Below, piece after piece: positions 28,601-34,607 of a stretch of 50,261 bases of DNA. This DNA comes from Bacteroidales bacterium (GTDB taxonomy: Bacteria > Bacteroidota > Bacteroidia > Bacteroidales > UBA932), in NCBI GenBank assembly GCA_030695025.1, contig JAUYTX010000078.1, forward strand, positions 1 to 50,261, written 5' to 3'. A program made the translations under genes and the position numbers. Below the pieces are notes generated by a model. The model saw only the letters and a list, made by a program, of their open reading frames with translations, was not told the origin of the DNA and made no database searches. Position 1 is the first letter of the stretch; the number at the start of each line of letters is the position of its first letter.

Positions 28601-29225
28601 TAAAAACTTTACAACCGCAACACTTTCAGACGCTTCTGATATGGTTGACAGGGCACCAAAAGATGAGTCGTTGCAGGGTAAAGAGATTATTATTGCAGGG
28701 TTGGTAACATCTGTAAAAATTTCATATACAAGAAGTACCGGGAAGCCTTTTGCAAATTTCACTGTTGAGGATTTTAACGGTTCGCAAAATTTTGCTGTTT
28801 ATGGGAAAGATTATGAGGGCTTTATGCAGTATTTACAACCAAATCTTCCTCTTATAATCAAATGTGCAATCAACCCCAGATTCGGCTATGCCTCTGCAAA
28901 TAAAGACGATGGCAAATCTGTTGACTACGAACTTAAAATCAAGAGAATAAGGCATCTGGCCAATACAAAAGAGGATTTTGTCAGGGATATTACCATTGAT
29001 ATTCCTGTTAAGATGATAACTCCGGGATTCAGGGGAGAGTTGGTTAAGAAGCTGAAGGAAAATAAAGGTAAAACTTCGCTGATAATAAAACTGGTAGATT
29101 ATGATAACCAGGTTGCAGTTGAGCTAATTTCTACCAAATATCAGATTTCATTAAATAATGATCTTCTCGATTACTTCGATTCAAGGGGAATATCATTCCG
29201 TTTCGTTCCAAGCCTGAGCTTTTAG
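25635..29225 (+). CDS. dnaE: DNA polymerase III alpha subunit
   Basis: The replicative polymerase subunit, 1196 residues, of the DnaE1 type. The N-terminal PHP domain (FVHLHVHTQYSILDGAANI) retains His residues of the ancestral phosphoesterase site. The polymerase active site is marked by GPGRGSAAGSVVAYCL and PDIDIDFDDD at residues 405-414. Then come the fingers (YQEQVMLLSQKLAGFSRGDA), a helix-hairpin-helix region (GIKGVGGAAVEHIIKAREEK), and the OB domain near residue 1010 (GLVTSVKISYTRSTGKPFAN). It follows gpmI by 12 nt. The last 33 nt overlap the convergent ThiL-like gene, leaving no terminator between them. Confidence 0.97.
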   Translation: MPFVHLHVHTQYSILDGAANIKKLFKAAQDDNQRALAITDHGNMFGVKEFLETAAKFPSVKPIVGCEVYVAKNSRLEKRGREDQGSYHLVLLAKNYEGYKNLVKLTSNAFIEGFYSKPRIDRELLERYSSGLICSSACLGGEVPQAILAGNIELAEETAKWYKNLFGDDYYLELQRHETDLPGADSNTYLTQCKANEAILEIARKLEIKCIATNDVHFVSADDREAHDRLICLTTNADIDDPQRLRYTKQEYLKSQAEMEQIFSDIPEVLLNTQEIADKVEGYDINSKPIMPNFEIPETFKNSDDYLRELSYQGALTRYKEITPEITERIDFELATIQKMGYPDYFLIVQDFIAAARSMGVSVGPGRGSAAGSVVAYCLRITDIDPLKYDLLFERFLNPDRISMPDIDIDFDDDGRHKVLNYVEKKYGKDHVSHVITFGTMAAKSAIRDIARIQRLPLQESDRLAKMIPNRFPTDDDGNTVDVTIENCLKFVPEFADAYNNGDPLLKETVDYAKKLEGNVRNVGVHACAIIIGKDDLREFIPITTANDKETGEKIWVSQYDGSQIEKVGMLKMDFLGLKTLSVIKDTVVNIKKSRGIDIDIDTIPIDDSLTYELFSRGDTVGTFQFESDGMRKWLRELKPTRFEDLIAMNALYRPGPMEYIPDFVNRKHGVKQIEYDLKEMEEILSDTYGVTVYQEQVMLLSQKLAGFSRGDADSLRKAMGKKTKSVMDELKQQFIKGGEDNGHKAVMLEKIWKDWEAFAQYAFNKSHSTCYAWIGYQTAYLKANYPAEFMAATLSRNLNDIEELTKLMDECKRMKIPVMGPDVNESRDNFTVTKKGNIRFGMAGIKGVGGAAVEHIIKAREEKGSPFESVFDFVERVNLNTVNRKTIESLIYAGAFDSFGQVARQQYLGTTSKDELFLDALIKYGNRFQNDTVNGGNSLFGTSESIKLVPPDVPLFMEADTHEILKREKELVGMYLSAHPLDIYAFEVKNFTTATLSDASDMVDRAPKDESLQGKEIIIAGLVTSVKISYTRSTGKPFANFTVEDFNGSQNFAVYGKDYEGFMQYLQPNLPLIIKCAINPRFGYASANKDDGKSVDYELKIKRIRHLANTKEDFVRDITIDIPVKMITPGFRGELVKKLKENKGKTSLIIKLVDYDNQVAVELISTKYQISLNNDLLDYFDSRGISFRFVPSLSF

Positions 29226-30176
29226 CTCTATTTCAGAGCCATCGGGAGTTATGAATTTGGTTCCTGCCGAAATATCACAAAGGTGCCCTACGATGTCAAG
29301 TTGTGGAAGCTCCTTTAGAACAGCCTCATATTGAGATTGTGGAATTGCAAAAAGGATTCTGTAATCCTCACCTCCGTTCATGGCGGCTGTCATTGGGTCA
29401 ATATTAAGCTCTTCTGCAACCTCCATTGCTGCAGAGAATACAGGTATTCTGTTCATAAAAATTTTGGCTCCAAGGTTATTTCTGCCACATATCGACTTAA
29501 CAGAATCGGCAAGCCCGTTAATAACAAAATCTCCCTCACTCGGGAAGATTCCTGCAGAGGTCATCAGATCAGGAAGTGTCTTGTCCAGCTCTGGGTTAAG
29601 GAAAGCCCTTAAAATGGGTTTGTATTTTTCAAGCTTCGGCTGAACTCCCCTCTCCTCAAAAATTCTCTTCTCCCGCTCAAGTATCTGAAGCCCCAGATAT
29701 GCAGCCCCTACGCTACCTGTCAAGCATAGCAGATCGCCGGATTTGCAGCTGTTATGTTGAACAAAGGTCTCCCTTTTTTGTTTTCCTTGGGACGAAAGGC
29801 TAATGGTGAGACCGGTGAGAGAAGATAAAAGGTCAAGTTCGATATATTCTGCAGAGTGCTCCTTAAGAGCAGCAGAGATACCTTGCCAAAGCTCCTCAAG
29901 CTGAGTAGTGCCAATTTTTTTTGACATACCAATTCTGACAGAGAGCGAATGAGGAGTAAACCCCTTTGCGTACAGAGGACCAAAGGCACTTAATACAGCT
30001 TTGTAACCGAGATGGTTTAGTGGTGTATAAACCAGGTCAAAGTCGGTACCCTCCAGCAAAAGCTTATGTGAGCTTGTGAAAACATACTCCTGGGTGTCAA
30101 AAATAATGTTATTGAAAGGAGACGCAGTGGTTTGTGAAAGAAGCTCCTGAATTAGTGAAATTTTGCTTTTGGCCAT
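29193..30176 (-). CDS. ThiL/AIR-synthase-related protein lacking apparent kinase residues
   Basis: The 327-residue protein aligns along its length with thiamine-monophosphate kinase ThiL, an AIR-synthase (PurM)-fold enzyme. Matches include LLEGTDFDLVYTPLNHLGYK, LCLTGSVGAAYLGLQIL, MTAAMNGGEDYRILFAIP and the C-terminal VGHL. Several expected Mg/ATP ligands seem lost. The N-terminal GDDAAV motif is replaced by NNIIFDTQEYV, the NISDIAAMGA motif after LGYKAV reads LSAFGPLYAKG, and the ISDGL motif reads VINGLADS. It may be inactive, regulatory, or act on another substrate. A -7 box (30194-30201) gives it a very short leader, and it is divergent from sufB. A true ThiL elsewhere in the genome would be expected. 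Confidence 0.75.
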   Translation of the reverse strand: MAKSKISLIQELLSQTTASPFNNIIFDTQEYVFTSSHKLLLEGTDFDLVYTPLNHLGYKAVLSAFGPLYAKGFTPHSLSVRIGMSKKIGTTQLEELWQGISAALKEHSAEYIELDLLSSLTGLTISLSSQGKQKRETFVQHNSCKSGDLLCLTGSVGAAYLGLQILEREKRIFEERGVQPKLEKYKPILRAFLNPELDKTLPDLMTSAGIFPSEGDFVINGLADSVKSICGRNNLGAKIFMNRIPVFSAAMEVAEELNIDPMTAAMNGGEDYRILFAIPQSQYEAVLKELPQLDIVGHLCDISAGTKFITPDGSEIELKAQAWNETE

Positions 30177-30229: not shown

Positions 30230-31663
30230 ATGAACGATAACGAAATTATTCAGAAGATAACAGAGTCCGATTACGAACACGGGTTTGAAACGGAGCTCGA
30301 ACAGGAGTACTTCCCCAAAGGACTCAACGAAGATATTATTCGGAGAATCTCTCAGATTAAGGGGGAGCCTGAGTGGATGCTTGAATTCCGCCTTAAGGCG
30401 TTTAACAAGTGGCTCACTATGAAGATGCCCGCGTGGGCACAACTTAAGATACCGGCAATAGATTATCAGGATATCATATACTTTTCAAGACCGAAAAAGG
30501 TGATGGAGAGTGGCGAGATTGATCCTGAACTGGCGGCTACTTTTGAGAAGCTGGGAATTCCTCTTCACGAAAGAAATGTGCTTGCAGGAGTTGCCGTTGA
30601 TGCTGTTTTTGACTCGGTTTCGGTTAAGACCACCTTCAGGGAGCAACTTGCCGAAAAGGGCATCATATTTTGTTCGTTTTCAGAGGCGGTGAGAGATTAT
30701 CCGGATCTGATTCGCCAGCATCTGGCAACAGTTGTTCCGTACGGGGACAACTATTTTGCAGCACTAAACTCGGCTGTTTTCAGCGATGGGTCGTTCTGCT
30801 ATATTCCCAAAGGGGTGAGGTGCCCAATGGAACTTTCAAGCTACTTCAGGATAAATGCAAAAGGTACAGGTCAGTTCGAAAGGACGCTCATTGTGGCCGA
30901 AGAGGGGTCATATGTGAGTTATCTTGAGGGTTGTACTGCTCCGCAAAGAGATGAAAATCAACTGCACGCAGCTGTTGTAGAGATTATTGTTCTCAAAGAC
31001 GCCGAGGTTAAATACTCAACTGTTCAAAACTGGTATCCGGGTGATGCTTCAGGTAAAGGGGGTATTTTTAATTTTGTAACCAAGCGGGGTATCTGCAAAG
31101 GTGAAAACAGCAAACTATTCTGGGCACAGGTTGAGACCGGTTCTGCAATCACATGGAAGTACCCGAGCACAATACTCAGGGGAGACAACTCAATATCTGA
31201 ATTCTATTCTGTAGCCGTAACCAACCATCATCAGCAGGCCGATACCGGAACCAAGATGATACATATTGGTAAAAACACAAAAAGCAGAATAGTGAGCAAG
31301 GGTATCTCTGCTGGGGTAAGCCAGAACAGTTACAGAGGATTGGTCAAAATTCTGCCCAATGCCGATAATTCAAGAAACTATACTCAGTGTGATTCTCTGC
31401 TTCTGGGCGACAAATGCGGAGCACACACATTCCCATATATCGAGAACGAGAATCAGACCGCAATACTGGAACATGAGGCTACAACCTCAAAAATAAGTGA
31501 AGATCAACTCTTCTACTGCCAGCAGAGAGGAATCGGCACCGAAGATGCTGTGGGTCTTATCGTAAACGGATATGCAAAAGAGGTTCTCAACCAGCTTCCT
31601 ATGGAGTTTGCTGTTGAGGCACAAAAGCTTTTACAGATAACTCTTGAGGGTAGCGTAGGATAA
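30230..31663 (+). CDS. sufB: Fe-S cluster assembly protein SufB
   Basis: A 477-residue scaffold subunit of the SufBCD complex, which assembles Fe-S clusters in the cytoplasm. The family pattern is complete: an N-terminal helical part ([18 protein letters not shown]), the core beta-helix ([39 protein letters not shown]), and a C-terminal section with [20 protein letters not shown] and [20 protein letters not shown]. The cysteine in the LGDKCGAHT region corresponds to the one proposed to hold the nascent cluster with SufD. It heads a sufB-pnuC-sufC-sufD operon. No sufS, sufE or sufU gene is present nearby. Confidence 0.96.
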
Positions 31664-31678
31664 TCAATCAGAAGACAT

Positions 31679-32332
31679 ATGACAGAACTTTTCAGCATAG
31701 ATAATATACTATTTTCAATTGGAGGACAGAATGTCTCTATTATCGAAACCATTTCTGTGGTTTCGGGGCTGACTTGTGTCTATCTTGCCACAAGGGCCAA
31801 GGTTGCCAATTTCTGGGTAGGTTATCTGTACAATATACTTCTCTTTATTCTTTTCTATCAGAAGGGACTCTACTCAAGCATGCTTGTACAGCCTGTATCT
31901 TTTGTGATCAACTTTTATGGTCATTACAGGTGGACACACCCGAAAAGCGGAGAGGAGAATAGTAAAAAACAACTTAAAATAACGCTTTTAACCAATAAGC
32001 AGCGGGTTTACTTTGTAGTTCAGCTTTTTGTGCTCGCAGCAGTTTGGGGCTTTGCCCTTACAGGACTTGACGATCTCTTTCCTTCAATTTTCAGGGAGGC
32101 AAAGAGACCATTTCTGGATGCATTTGTCACTGTGGCAATTTTGACTGCCCAGTATCTCTCTGCACAGAAAAAGCTTGACTGCTGGGCAGCCTGGTTAACA
32201 GTAAACGTAACAAACATTACACTATATTTACTGGCAGGAATGGTCTTTCTGCCGATGGTAAGTGCCGGATACACAATTCTCGCCTTCTTCGGATTCAGAA
32301 TGTGGAGAAAACAGTGGCGGCAAAACAATTAA
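31679..32332 (+). CDS. PnuC-family vitamin transporter inside the suf operon
   Basis: A 217-residue membrane protein of the PnuC family (facilitators for nicotinamide riboside, and in related subgroups thiamine or riboflavin). About seven hydrophobic helices are visible. Family motifs are FVINFYGHYRWTHP after the third helix and the aromatic-rich LDCWAAWLTVNVTNITLYLL. It sits 15 nt after sufB and 18 nt before sufC, so it should be co-expressed with Fe-S assembly genes, although PnuC has no known role in that process. The ThiL-like gene just upstream hints at a thiamine-type substrate (PnuT-like), but the substrate cannot be decided by eye. Confidence 0.85.
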   Translation: MTELFSIDNILFSIGGQNVSIIETISVVSGLTCVYLATRAKVANFWVGYLYNILLFILFYQKGLYSSMLVQPVSFVINFYGHYRWTHPKSGEENSKKQLKITLLTNKQRVYFVVQLFVLAAVWGFALTGLDDLFPSIFREAKRPFLDAFVTVAILTAQYLSAQKKLDCWAAWLTVNVTNITLYLLAGMVFLPMVSAGYTILAFFGFRMWRKQWRQNN

Positions 32333-32350: not shown

Positions 32351-33094
32351 ATGTTAGAGATAAAAGGCTTACACGCTTCAATAAACGGTAAAGAGATTCT
32401 TAAAGGAATTGATATCTCTGTTAAGGCTGGTGAGGTGCACGCAATTATGGGTCCGAATGGTTCAGGAAAGAGCACCCTTGCATCTGTACTTGCAGGGAGA
32501 GATACATTTGATGTAACAGAGGGGGAGGTATTGTTCAATGGTATAAATCTTCTGGAATATTCTCCGGAGGAGAGGGCAAGAGAGGGTCTGTTTTTAGGAT
32601 TCCAGTATCCCGTAGAAATTCCAGGCGTAAGCAATGTTAACTTTATGAAGACTGCAATTAATGAACAGAGGAAATTCAGAAATCTTCCTCCTGTTACTGC
32701 AGCTGAGTTTCTAAAGATGATGAGAGAGAAGATGGCTGTTGTTGAGATGGACAGCTCATTTTCGAGTCGCGGAGTAAATGTAGGATTTTCGGGTGGTGAG
32801 AAAAAGAGGAATGAAATTTTTCAGATGGCAATGCTTGAGCCTAAACTGGCAATTCTTGATGAGACCGACAGTGGGTTGGATATTGATGCCCTCAGAATTG
32901 TTGCAGCAGGTGTAAATAAACTCAAAAGGCCAGATAACGCCTTTGTTGTAATTACTCACTATCAAAGACTTCTCGACTATATTATTCCCGATGTAGTACA
33001 TGTGCTTTATGACGGAAAAATTATCAAATCCGAAGGAAAGGAGCTTGCTCTTGAGGTAGAAAAGAGAGGATATGACTGGTTGATTAACGCTTAA
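32351..33094 (+). CDS. sufC: Fe-S cluster assembly ATPase SufC
   Basis: A 247-residue ABC-type ATPase that powers conformational change of SufB-SufD. Walker A is GPNGSGKST (residues 34-42), the signature is [10 protein letters not shown], and Walker B is [16 protein letters not shown], with the SufC-typical Asp-Ser-Gly instead of the transporter sequence. HYQRLLDYI supplies the switch histidine region. There is no membrane partner, as expected. It lies 18 nt after the pnuC-like gene and 5 nt before sufD. Confidence 0.97.
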
Positions 33095-33099
33095 TAGTA

Positions 33100-34140
33100 A
33101 TGACAGAGACAAAATATACATATACACCTGATATTCCGGAGGTATTCCGATGCCGGGTTCCCCTGCCGGGTACTCTTCAGGCATTTGTGAATAACGGTGC
33201 ACTCAGGGAAAATCTTGTCAATGACAGATTTACTCTTAAATCCCAGGGTGCTGCAGGTATTGAATTCAATGTTGCCCCTGCCTGTATAGTTGACGATACT
33301 ATTCAGGTTATCAGCTTCAGGGATTCATCGGATACATCGGATATTAACTTTATAAGTAATATAACATTCGGCAGGGAGAGCAGTTCAAGCACTCTTCTCT
33401 GTACACACACCCTCTCTCTTGATAAATTCAAGACAGATGAGGTGATAAATATTAAAGCAGAGCAAGGTTCAAGGTCTCATATTGTCATAATGCAGAATGA
33501 GCATAATGAATCTGCTCATAAGTTTCAAATAAACATTTCGGTTGAAGAGGGGGCTTTTTTAAGAATTAACTTTATAACACTTCACGGAGCACTTCTTGAA
33601 AACGAGGTTGTTGTAAACTTAAATGGTAAAGGAGCTTCGTGTGAACTTAATGGAGCCTATCTGATGGATGGTTCACAAATCATTAAGACAAATATTATGA
33701 TGAATCACCTTGAGCCGGAGTGCTACAGCAGCCAACTGTTCAAGGGAATTCTGGATGATAGTGCAAAGGCCTATTTTTCAGGAAGGATTGTTGTTGCTAA
33801 AGATGCTCAGAAGACTCAGGCATATCAGGCAAATCACAACCTGCTGATATCTCCCGCAGCAAAAGCTTATGCCCAGCCACAACTGGAAATTTACGCCGAC
33901 GACGTTAAATGCTCTCACGGAGCAACCAGCGGCAGACTTGATGAGATGGGGCTTTTCTATATGCGCTCAAGAGGCATATCAGGAACCGAGGCAAAACTGC
34001 TTCAACAGCTTGCCTTTGTGTATGATGTGCTCGAAAAAATTGAAAATCAACACCTCAGAGATAGGCTGCACGATCTTGTGGAGTCAAGATTAAGGGGTGA
34101 ATTTGGTCATTGTACCAACTGTAGCATGAATTGTTGTTAA
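33100..34140 (+). CDS. sufD: Fe-S cluster assembly protein SufD, short form with Cys-rich tail
   Basis: The 346-residue protein forms the heterodimer with SufB. The SufD core and the diagnostic QLEIYADDVKCSHGAT with its conserved His and Cys are intact, followed by FYMRSRGISGTEAKLLQQLA. It is clearly shorter than the roughly 420-450 residues usual for the family: most of the N-terminal helical domain is absent and the protein begins at KYTYTPDIPEVF. I see no upstream in-frame extension because sufC ends 5 nt before the ATG. The C-terminus ends HCTNCSMNCC, four cysteines in ten residues, which could bind a metal or nascent cluster. Confidence 0.92.
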   Translation: MTETKYTYTPDIPEVFRCRVPLPGTLQAFVNNGALRENLVNDRFTLKSQGAAGIEFNVAPACIVDDTIQVISFRDSSDTSDINFISNITFGRESSSSTLLCTHTLSLDKFKTDEVINIKAEQGSRSHIVIMQNEHNESAHKFQINISVEEGAFLRINFITLHGALLENEVVVNLNGKGASCELNGAYLMDGSQIIKTNIMMNHLEPECYSSQLFKGILDDSAKAYFSGRIVVAKDAQKTQAYQANHNLLISPAAKAYAQPQLEIYADDVKCSHGATSGRLDEMGLFYMRSRGISGTEAKLLQQLAFVYDVLEKIENQHLRDRLHDLVESRLRGEFGHCTNCSMNCC

Positions 34141-34160: not shown

Positions 34161-34607
34161 ATGAAAAATCTGGCAAAACTTTTACTGGTGTCCATGATAC
34201 TTGTTCCGACTCTGATTTTTGCCCAACCGGCAAAAATTGCAGCAAAGTGGTACTCAATAGACGAAGACGGGAATAAAAAATCGCTGGTTTCTATTTATAA
34301 AACAACCTCAGGAACCTACGAGGGGGTAATCGAAAAACTTCTGACAGGTGATACAAAGAGAAAATGTGTTAATTGTACAGGAGACGATAAGGATAAGCCT
34401 ATTGAGGGTATGAAGATATTAAAGAACTTTAAGGCCGATGGTGAAAAACTTACCGGAGGAACCATACTGGACCCTGCAAATGGAAAAATTTACCACTGCA
34501 CAATTCAGATAGATAAAAAGACAGGAATGCTCAAAGTTAGGGGCTCATTGGACAAAACAGGAATCATAGGAAGAAACCAAACATGGGAACCTGCTGGAAA
34601 TAAGTAA
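34161..34607 (+). CDS. Secreted DUF2147 protein
   Basis: A 148-residue exported protein with signal peptide MKNLAKLLLVSMILVPTLIF, followed by a single DUF2147 domain. Typical features are the opening KIAAKWYSIDEDGNKKSLVS, a CVNCTGDDKDKPIEGMKIL loop, then GGTILDPANGKIYHCTI and the strand ending LKVRGSLDKTGIIGRNQTW. The fold is a small lipocalin-like beta barrel; its biochemical role is not established. It starts 20 nt after sufD and is probably the last gene of that transcript. A small perfect hairpin (GTGACA-ttc-TGTCAC, 34620-34634) follows. Confidence 0.88.
   Translation: MKNLAKLLLVSMILVPTLIFAQPAKIAAKWYSIDEDGNKKSLVSIYKTTSGTYEGVIEKLLTGDTKRKCVNCTGDDKDKPIEGMKILKNFKADGEKLTGGTILDPANGKIYHCTIQIDKKTGMLKVRGSLDKTGIIGRNQTWEPAGNK

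Follow-up and report, generated by a model that had tools for sequence, protein, structure and literature searches.

Vitamin transporters usually sit with the pathway or the riboswitch of their own vitamin. Why, then, does a Bacteroidales bacterium keep a gene of the Pnu transporter family in the middle of its suf operon for iron-sulfur (Fe-S) cluster assembly, and which compound does the encoded protein carry? We approached both questions from one window, that is, the whole stretch of 50,261 nucleotides that was analysed, and from the genomes related to it.

The suf-linked gene and its product

Four genes follow one another on the plus strand of the window: sufB (30230..31663; TIGR01980, 636 bits; NF008773, 885 bits), a Pnu-family transporter gene (31679..32332), sufC (32351..33094; TIGR01978, 356 bits) and sufD (33100..34140), the latter scoring 215.6 bits with TIGR01981, just below the cut-off of 222, and 216 bits with PF01458. 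The gaps between them measure 15, 18 and 5 nt, and the coordinates confirm exactly the 15- and 18-nt spacing around the transporter gene that an earlier note on this DNA had described. With sufB, sufC and sufD in one direction, the locus is a SUF operon; sufS is not beside sufD in the window. Between sufB and sufC, the plus strand showed no terminator-like site, and the transporter is probably made from a sufB-pnu-sufC-sufD message. A promoter scan was not informative, returning 13 sigma-70-like sites against 10.1 expected. A DUF2147 gene (34161..34607, plus strand; PF09917, 88 bits) begins 20 nt past sufD, is kept 3' of sufD in near relatives and may also be on the suf transcript. The operon holds no FMN, NAD or TPP riboswitch and no rib genes, neither FMN nor TPP riboswitches were found anywhere in the window, and no thiamine pyrophosphokinase gene lies between or beside its suf genes.

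The inserted gene starts with ATG and encodes 217 amino acids. PF04973 matches residues 20-211 over its full length (profile positions 1-175 of 175) with 150 bits, against a cut-off of 27.3, and the profile TIGR01528, named nicotinamide riboside (NR) transporter, scores 103 bits, above its cut-off. An AlphaFold model (AF2) built from a 36-row alignment of relatives reached a pLDDT of 91 and a pTM of 0.86. Its sole strong solved match is PDB 4qtn, an NR transporter PnuC that we take to be from Neisseria mucosa (Foldseek E 2.7e-6; VIA Z 13.5 over 191 residues); the next best VIA match has a Z of 6.8, and rows after 4qtn (Z < 7) were not used. Moreover, the WxxWxxxN motif of the Pnu family (W169, W172 and N176; codons at 32183..32206, plus strand) aligns with W182, W185 and N189 of 4qtn. 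On the whole-domain profile match, the PnuC fold and this motif, the protein belongs to the Pnu family (PF04973), and the gene encodes a Pnu-type transporter.

Although the fold is shared, identity to 4qtn is 27% over chain residues 41-231, and several positions differ: N91 of 4qtn corresponds to Q71, Y95 to S74, Q99 to N78, F103 to H82 and T192 to N179. The second helix of the model bears a clade-specific stretch, N44-F45-W46..Y49..Y51, that opens with the N44 codon at 31808..31810 on the plus strand; N44, F45, Y49 and Y51 are invariant and W46 is nearly so among 36 aligned homologues. H82 (codon 31922..31924, plus strand) is mostly replaced by Trp or Phe in the NR and thiamine paralogues, and Q158 (codon 32150..32152, plus strand) is invariant in the 36-row alignment. 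Y49, Y51, L55, Q71, H82, Q158, C168 and N179 are among the positions that vary little or not at all in these 36 members of the clade, and no assigned reference has all of them as a set. Six (H82, Q158, N179, Y49, Y51 and L55) serve as markers of the suf-type clade. Judging by the alignment with 4qtn, these positions presumably line the pocket. E. coli PnuC, encoded in the nadA-pnuC operon, is 32% identical, lies outside the suf clade and has M for Q158, W for H82 and S for N179. NadA is an Fe-S enzyme, and E. coli pnuC therefore resembles the suf-linked gene in being beside an Fe-S related gene.

Conservation of the arrangement and position of the clade

Searching GTDB genomes with the suf-linked protein yielded 304 relatives, and we analysed the best 80. 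The order SufB-Pnu-SufC is found in 67 of these best 80 of 304, with identities down to 47%, much more often than chance would allow; 60 of the loci were identified by script, six have overlapping sufB/pnu pairs and one (L053) was read by inspection. As for the other loci among the best 80 of 304, four have Pnu and SufC with no SufB found upstream (L037, L038, L041, L073), one lies on a contig that ends right after Pnu (L058), and eight show neither the SufB nor the SufC arrangement. The window's family consists of uncultured gut and sediment bacteria and comprises 119 genomes in 25 genera. After adjacency had been completed by reading extra regions, Pnu was found directly after sufB in 70 of the 119 (46 by coordinates, 8 and 16 more from region reading), a count that scores as "not after sufB" four genomes with a contig break past sufB (G177, G201, G226, G257) and the 15 without a full-length SufB, except G187, where a sufB fragment 2.5 kb before Pnu was scored as "after sufB". 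The arrangement occurs in all nine genomes of the own genus and in 17 of the 24 SufB-bearing genera of the family.

Across the order the picture is different. In an even sample, SufB was present in 145 of 148 genomes and PF04973 in 110, but Pnu lies beside sufB in only 4 of the 145 SufB genomes, as read by eye from coordinates: three of the own family and one of another family (G101). No Pnu gene was found in any of 30 order-level SufB loci read with 1.5 kb flanks; the suf operons of other Bacteroidales thus share the sufB and sufC neighbours seen here and differ in having no Pnu (30/30 loci). The possibility of a strain-specific insertion, raised in the earlier note, is ruled out by conservation over many genera. 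Loci without Pnu often have sufB and sufC side by side (L157, L163, L165, L235, L240, L243, L251). Because a clean loss of the gene is thus possible, retention of the suf type looks selected.

The own genome carries three PF04973 genes, namely a PnuT (L002/L084), a second paralogue (L001/L085) and the suf-linked one. In trees of 145 and 55 rows, the suf-linked proteins group in a single clade, which arose once and shows a few departures. This suf type is monophyletic (100/100), and PnuT stands on the other side of a 100/99 branch. It falls on the E. coli PnuC side of the tree, yet as a separate 100/100 clade. The structurally solved 4qtn nests in the clade of the second paralogue (100/100 group), which has the N64, Y65, N91, Y95, Q99 and N189 of 4qtn. 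The basal neighbours of the suf clade (G101, G152, G153, G165, G226) have residues that differ at many of the compared positions. The suf-linked Pnu is a distinct clade, apart from the PnuT and the NR-type PnuC of its own genome, and labels reading "nicotinamide riboside transporter PnuC" cover at least three types in one genome in Bacteroidales. Among the listed titles and abstract beginnings of open-licence PMC papers, including those on riboflavin transporters with suf and on FMN riboswitches with TonB receptors, no description of the sufB-pnu-sufC arrangement was found. The one paper listed there for sufB together with pnuC concerns Lactococcus transcriptomes. Altogether, the suf operon harbours a genuine and conserved subfamily of Pnu proteins that is not described in the open-licence PMC literature searched.

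Two further observations concern other Pnu clades. The NR-type PnuC of the second paralogue (L001:1477-2166; L085:7295-7984) occurs in genomes where no NadR-type kinase could be recognised, and genes of this type follow a large same-strand gene in six loci. In one 22-row clade of the order (L086-L115 and others), seven genes lie beside a thiamine-kinase-like gene and seven beside one for a NadR-type kinase, assigned by motifs. Since both kinds of neighbour occur in one clade, Pnu cargo appears to switch repeatedly within it.

Candidate cargoes

The earlier note leaned towards thiamine on account of a neighbouring ThiL-like gene. This gene (29193..30176; TIGR01379, 126 bits, below the ThiL cut-off of 184) is transcribed away from sufB on the minus strand, and ThiL adjoins sufB in 10 of the 30 order-level loci that lack Pnu. 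The pairing is therefore independent of Pnu; we rejected it as a thiamine clue, and the ThiL-like gene is an old sufB neighbour outside the suf operon. A need for the vitamin is clear enough, as the own genome is without thiC and must therefore import thiamine or its parts, and in G164, which lacks thiC and has ribE and nadA, the only PF04973 gene is of the suf type. However, the own genome already has a PnuT within a thiamine-uptake operon (plus strand, in the region L084:4311-8486 of contig C5) composed of a TPP riboswitch, a TonB receptor, PnuT and a BadF-type kinase-like gene. A layout of TPP riboswitch and TonB receptor is described for thiamine uptake in Bacteroides (PMC5613172). PnuT shares family and fold with the suf-linked protein but differs in this operon context and in E37 and W45, residues that are usual among PnuT proteins and missing from the suf type, which falls outside the PnuT clade in the 145- and 55-row trees and has neither a TPP riboswitch nor a thiamine kinase in its operon. 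Thiamine is thus an unlikely cargo, and the earlier preference for a thiamine transporter retains little credibility. As to the PnuT operon itself, RNase P RNA precedes it on the minus strand, no thiamine kinase lies beside it, and its BadF-type gene was named by eye. No FMN, NAD or TPP riboswitch was detected on 40 short paralogue loci of ~3-5 kb each; such short flanks miss the TPP riboswitch of PnuT because it lies before the TonB receptor.

The other cargo considered in the earlier note, an NAD precursor, agrees with the automatic annotation as an NR transporter, and the tie to suf could then run through the 4Fe-4S cluster of NadA. The protein passes TIGR01528, E. coli PnuC is among its closer references, and nadA is absent from 17 of 27 representative genomes, hence an NAD precursor is needed there. 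TIGR01528, however, is also passed by the TPP-riboswitch PnuT of the own genome (100 bits), for which reason we rejected it as proof of NR specificity, and it is the second paralogue that shares a clade with 4qtn. A NadR-type AAA_28 kinase was found by motif downstream of one Bacteroidales PnuC clade in 13 of 15 loci (three of the 13 kinases Pfam-checked), and for six NadR-type kinases, drawn from two clades, PF13521 gives 84-133 bits. Against an NR cargo, an AAA_28 kinase above the cut-off is absent from 26 of the 27 representatives, the lone one past the PF13521 cut-off (G202, 41 bits) being a protein that looks unrelated; NadR above the cut-off is found in 0/27, and the own genome has neither. 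Nor does the suf type follow the absence of nadA, missing from 12/18 representatives with it and 5/8 without (p 1.0; 26 of the 27 used, with G159 left out because its genus, g141, with 8 genomes, has untyped PF04973 genes). We also rejected a backup role, with NR imported when the NadA cluster fails, as a general reason, for nadA is missing from 12 of 19 representatives in which Pnu follows sufB, a set made up of G101 and 18 genomes of the family, two of the latter from the own genus. The NAD-precursor idea is weakened; NR is probably not the cargo, and the NR transporter reading as a whole is doubtful. Another nucleoside- or vitamin-like compound, such as a deoxynucleoside (as proposed for PnuN) or a queuosine precursor, would fit a pocket-residue set matched by no assigned reference. 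In addition, a nearer reference, the Salinivibrio PnuC (33%), is followed by a nucleoside phosphorylase gene, and nrdJ is downstream of suf in near relatives. But nrdJ is not kept beside suf in many rumen lineages, no neighbour gene indicates another compound, and we consider such a cargo unlikely.

Riboflavin is the most likely candidate that remains, a substrate that we infer with moderate confidence. The biosynthetic gene ribE is present in 8 of the 27 representatives and absent from the own genome and from the single-contig genome G156, while ribH is found in 34 of the 119 genomes of the family but not once in the nine of the own genus. FMN riboswitches occur in 8 of the 27 representatives. 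In four ribE-bearing genomes they precede ribD-like genes (read by eye), and in four ribE-lacking ones (the own genome, G156, G158 and G186) they precede a lone TonB receptor. In the own genome (L229:1033-3518, contig C40), the riboswitch lies directly before a monocistronic TonB-dependent receptor gene with a Plug domain and is the only FMN riboswitch there. No transporter gene lies next door to these receptors in the four ribE-lacking genomes, and in the own genome no inner-membrane transporter gene follows 3' in the same direction. We predict that they are outer-membrane riboflavin receptors. From the absence of ribE together with such a receptor, the auxotrophs appear to take riboflavin through the outer membrane. 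In agreement with a flavin cargo, Pnu follows sufB in 61/85 ribH-lacking and 9/34 ribH-bearing genomes (Fisher p 9e-6, kinship ignored; G152, with ribE and no ribH match, was scored as ribH-lacking). In the 26 representatives, among which related genomes are not independent, ribE is missing from 15/18 with the derived suf type and 3/8 without (p 0.06), and thiC from 16/18 and 5/8 (p 0.28); the derived type goes with the lack of ribE rather than with that of thiC or nadA.

Riboflavin would enter the periplasm through the TonB receptor that the FMN riboswitch controls, cross the inner membrane by way of the suf-linked Pnu and then be trapped by phosphorylation to FMN/FAD, the kind of trapping that other Pnu systems use. 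PnuX/RibM of Actinobacteria is described as a member of the same family with the same proposed cargo (PMC4418817 and PMC7749635). PnuX genes can carry FMN riboswitches, whereas the suf-linked gene has none and sits in suf. According to PMC4418817, RibM is difficult to distinguish from PnuC on sequence. Several findings speak against riboflavin. The operon lacks the FMN riboswitch or rib genes by which PnuX/RibM is recognised. A derived suf-type Pnu is kept in 10 ribH-bearing genomes, of which eight have it after sufB (the type follows from the tree or the best match in six, and from position alone in G008 and G220), G164 has a relocated, typed copy, and G182, of the same genus, is inferred. 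Conversely, G174 is without ribE, ribH and any PF04973 gene, and the association with ribE is weak at the level of representatives (p 0.06). In human gut genomes, moreover, facilitator-type (PnuX-like) riboflavin transporters were found only in B2 prototrophs (PMC6593275), and this too argues against riboflavin. Weighing these points, we assign a probability of roughly 0.42 to the reading in which the protein, an inner-membrane facilitator of Pnu type from a distinct clade, carries riboflavin and its co-expression with suf ties flavin supply to Fe-S assembly. More tentatively, the genes fixed in the suf operon of this one Bacteroidales family may constitute a new Pnu subfamily, the inner-membrane riboflavin carriers of flavin auxotrophs, paired with the FMN-riboswitch TonB receptor and with import wired to Fe-S assembly. 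In any case, the protein is a testable candidate for vitamin B2 uptake by riboflavin-auxotrophic Bacteroidales.

Flavin supply, Fe-S assembly and the place in suf

Flavin-based electron carriers serve under iron stress. Iron or oxidative stress could raise the need for SUF and for flavin-based carriers together, and expression of a riboflavin facilitator from the suf message would tie flavin supply to cluster assembly. A more direct connection is offered by the complex itself. In PMC6006206, SufBC2D is reported to co-purify with one flavin per complex and to bind only FADH2, and iron reduction is proposed as the role of this flavin. The one FADH2 held by each SufBC2D complex may be why flavin supply is tied to suf, and we regard this as a plausible reason for the linkage.

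A fair rival to this explanation is that the gene is a passenger, which landed once between sufB and sufC and was kept for strong operon expression with no link to Fe-S assembly. It concerns the tie to suf, leaves the question of cargo unchanged and is compatible with riboflavin. A single origin does account for the distribution in the 145-row tree, and in eight loci (L045, L049, L055, L060, L062, L064, L066, L200) the gene left suf and survived. Unrelated genes, a restriction-modification pair and DUF4954, are found at the same spot too. On the other hand, Pnu is kept in most genera even though it can be lost cleanly, and this long retention in an Fe-S operon suggests that a cofactor is hard-wired to Fe-S biogenesis, possibly through the flavin of SufBC2D, whose purpose is debated. 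The neighbours of departed Pnu genes (L045-L066, L200, L209), identified by eye as FtsX, UppP-like, ABC-F and others, gave no vitamin clue.

The neighbourhood of sufB and pnu shows some further variation. In L069 (4020-5982), genes for a cytosine methylase and a restriction enzyme of EcoO109I type lie between sufB and pnu, and gaps of ~2 kb are present at the same site in L075, L078, L081 and L083. A DUF4954/DUF6819 gene lies directly 5' of a suf-type Pnu, or overlaps it, in L037 and L039 (Pfam-checked) and in L038, L040, L041 and L206 (by eye). Finally, the locus of G101, of another family, reads as one run (L172:247-6503) of sufB, a basal-type pnu, a small membrane gene, sufC and sufD, ending in SufS-like and SufE-like genes, both named by eye.
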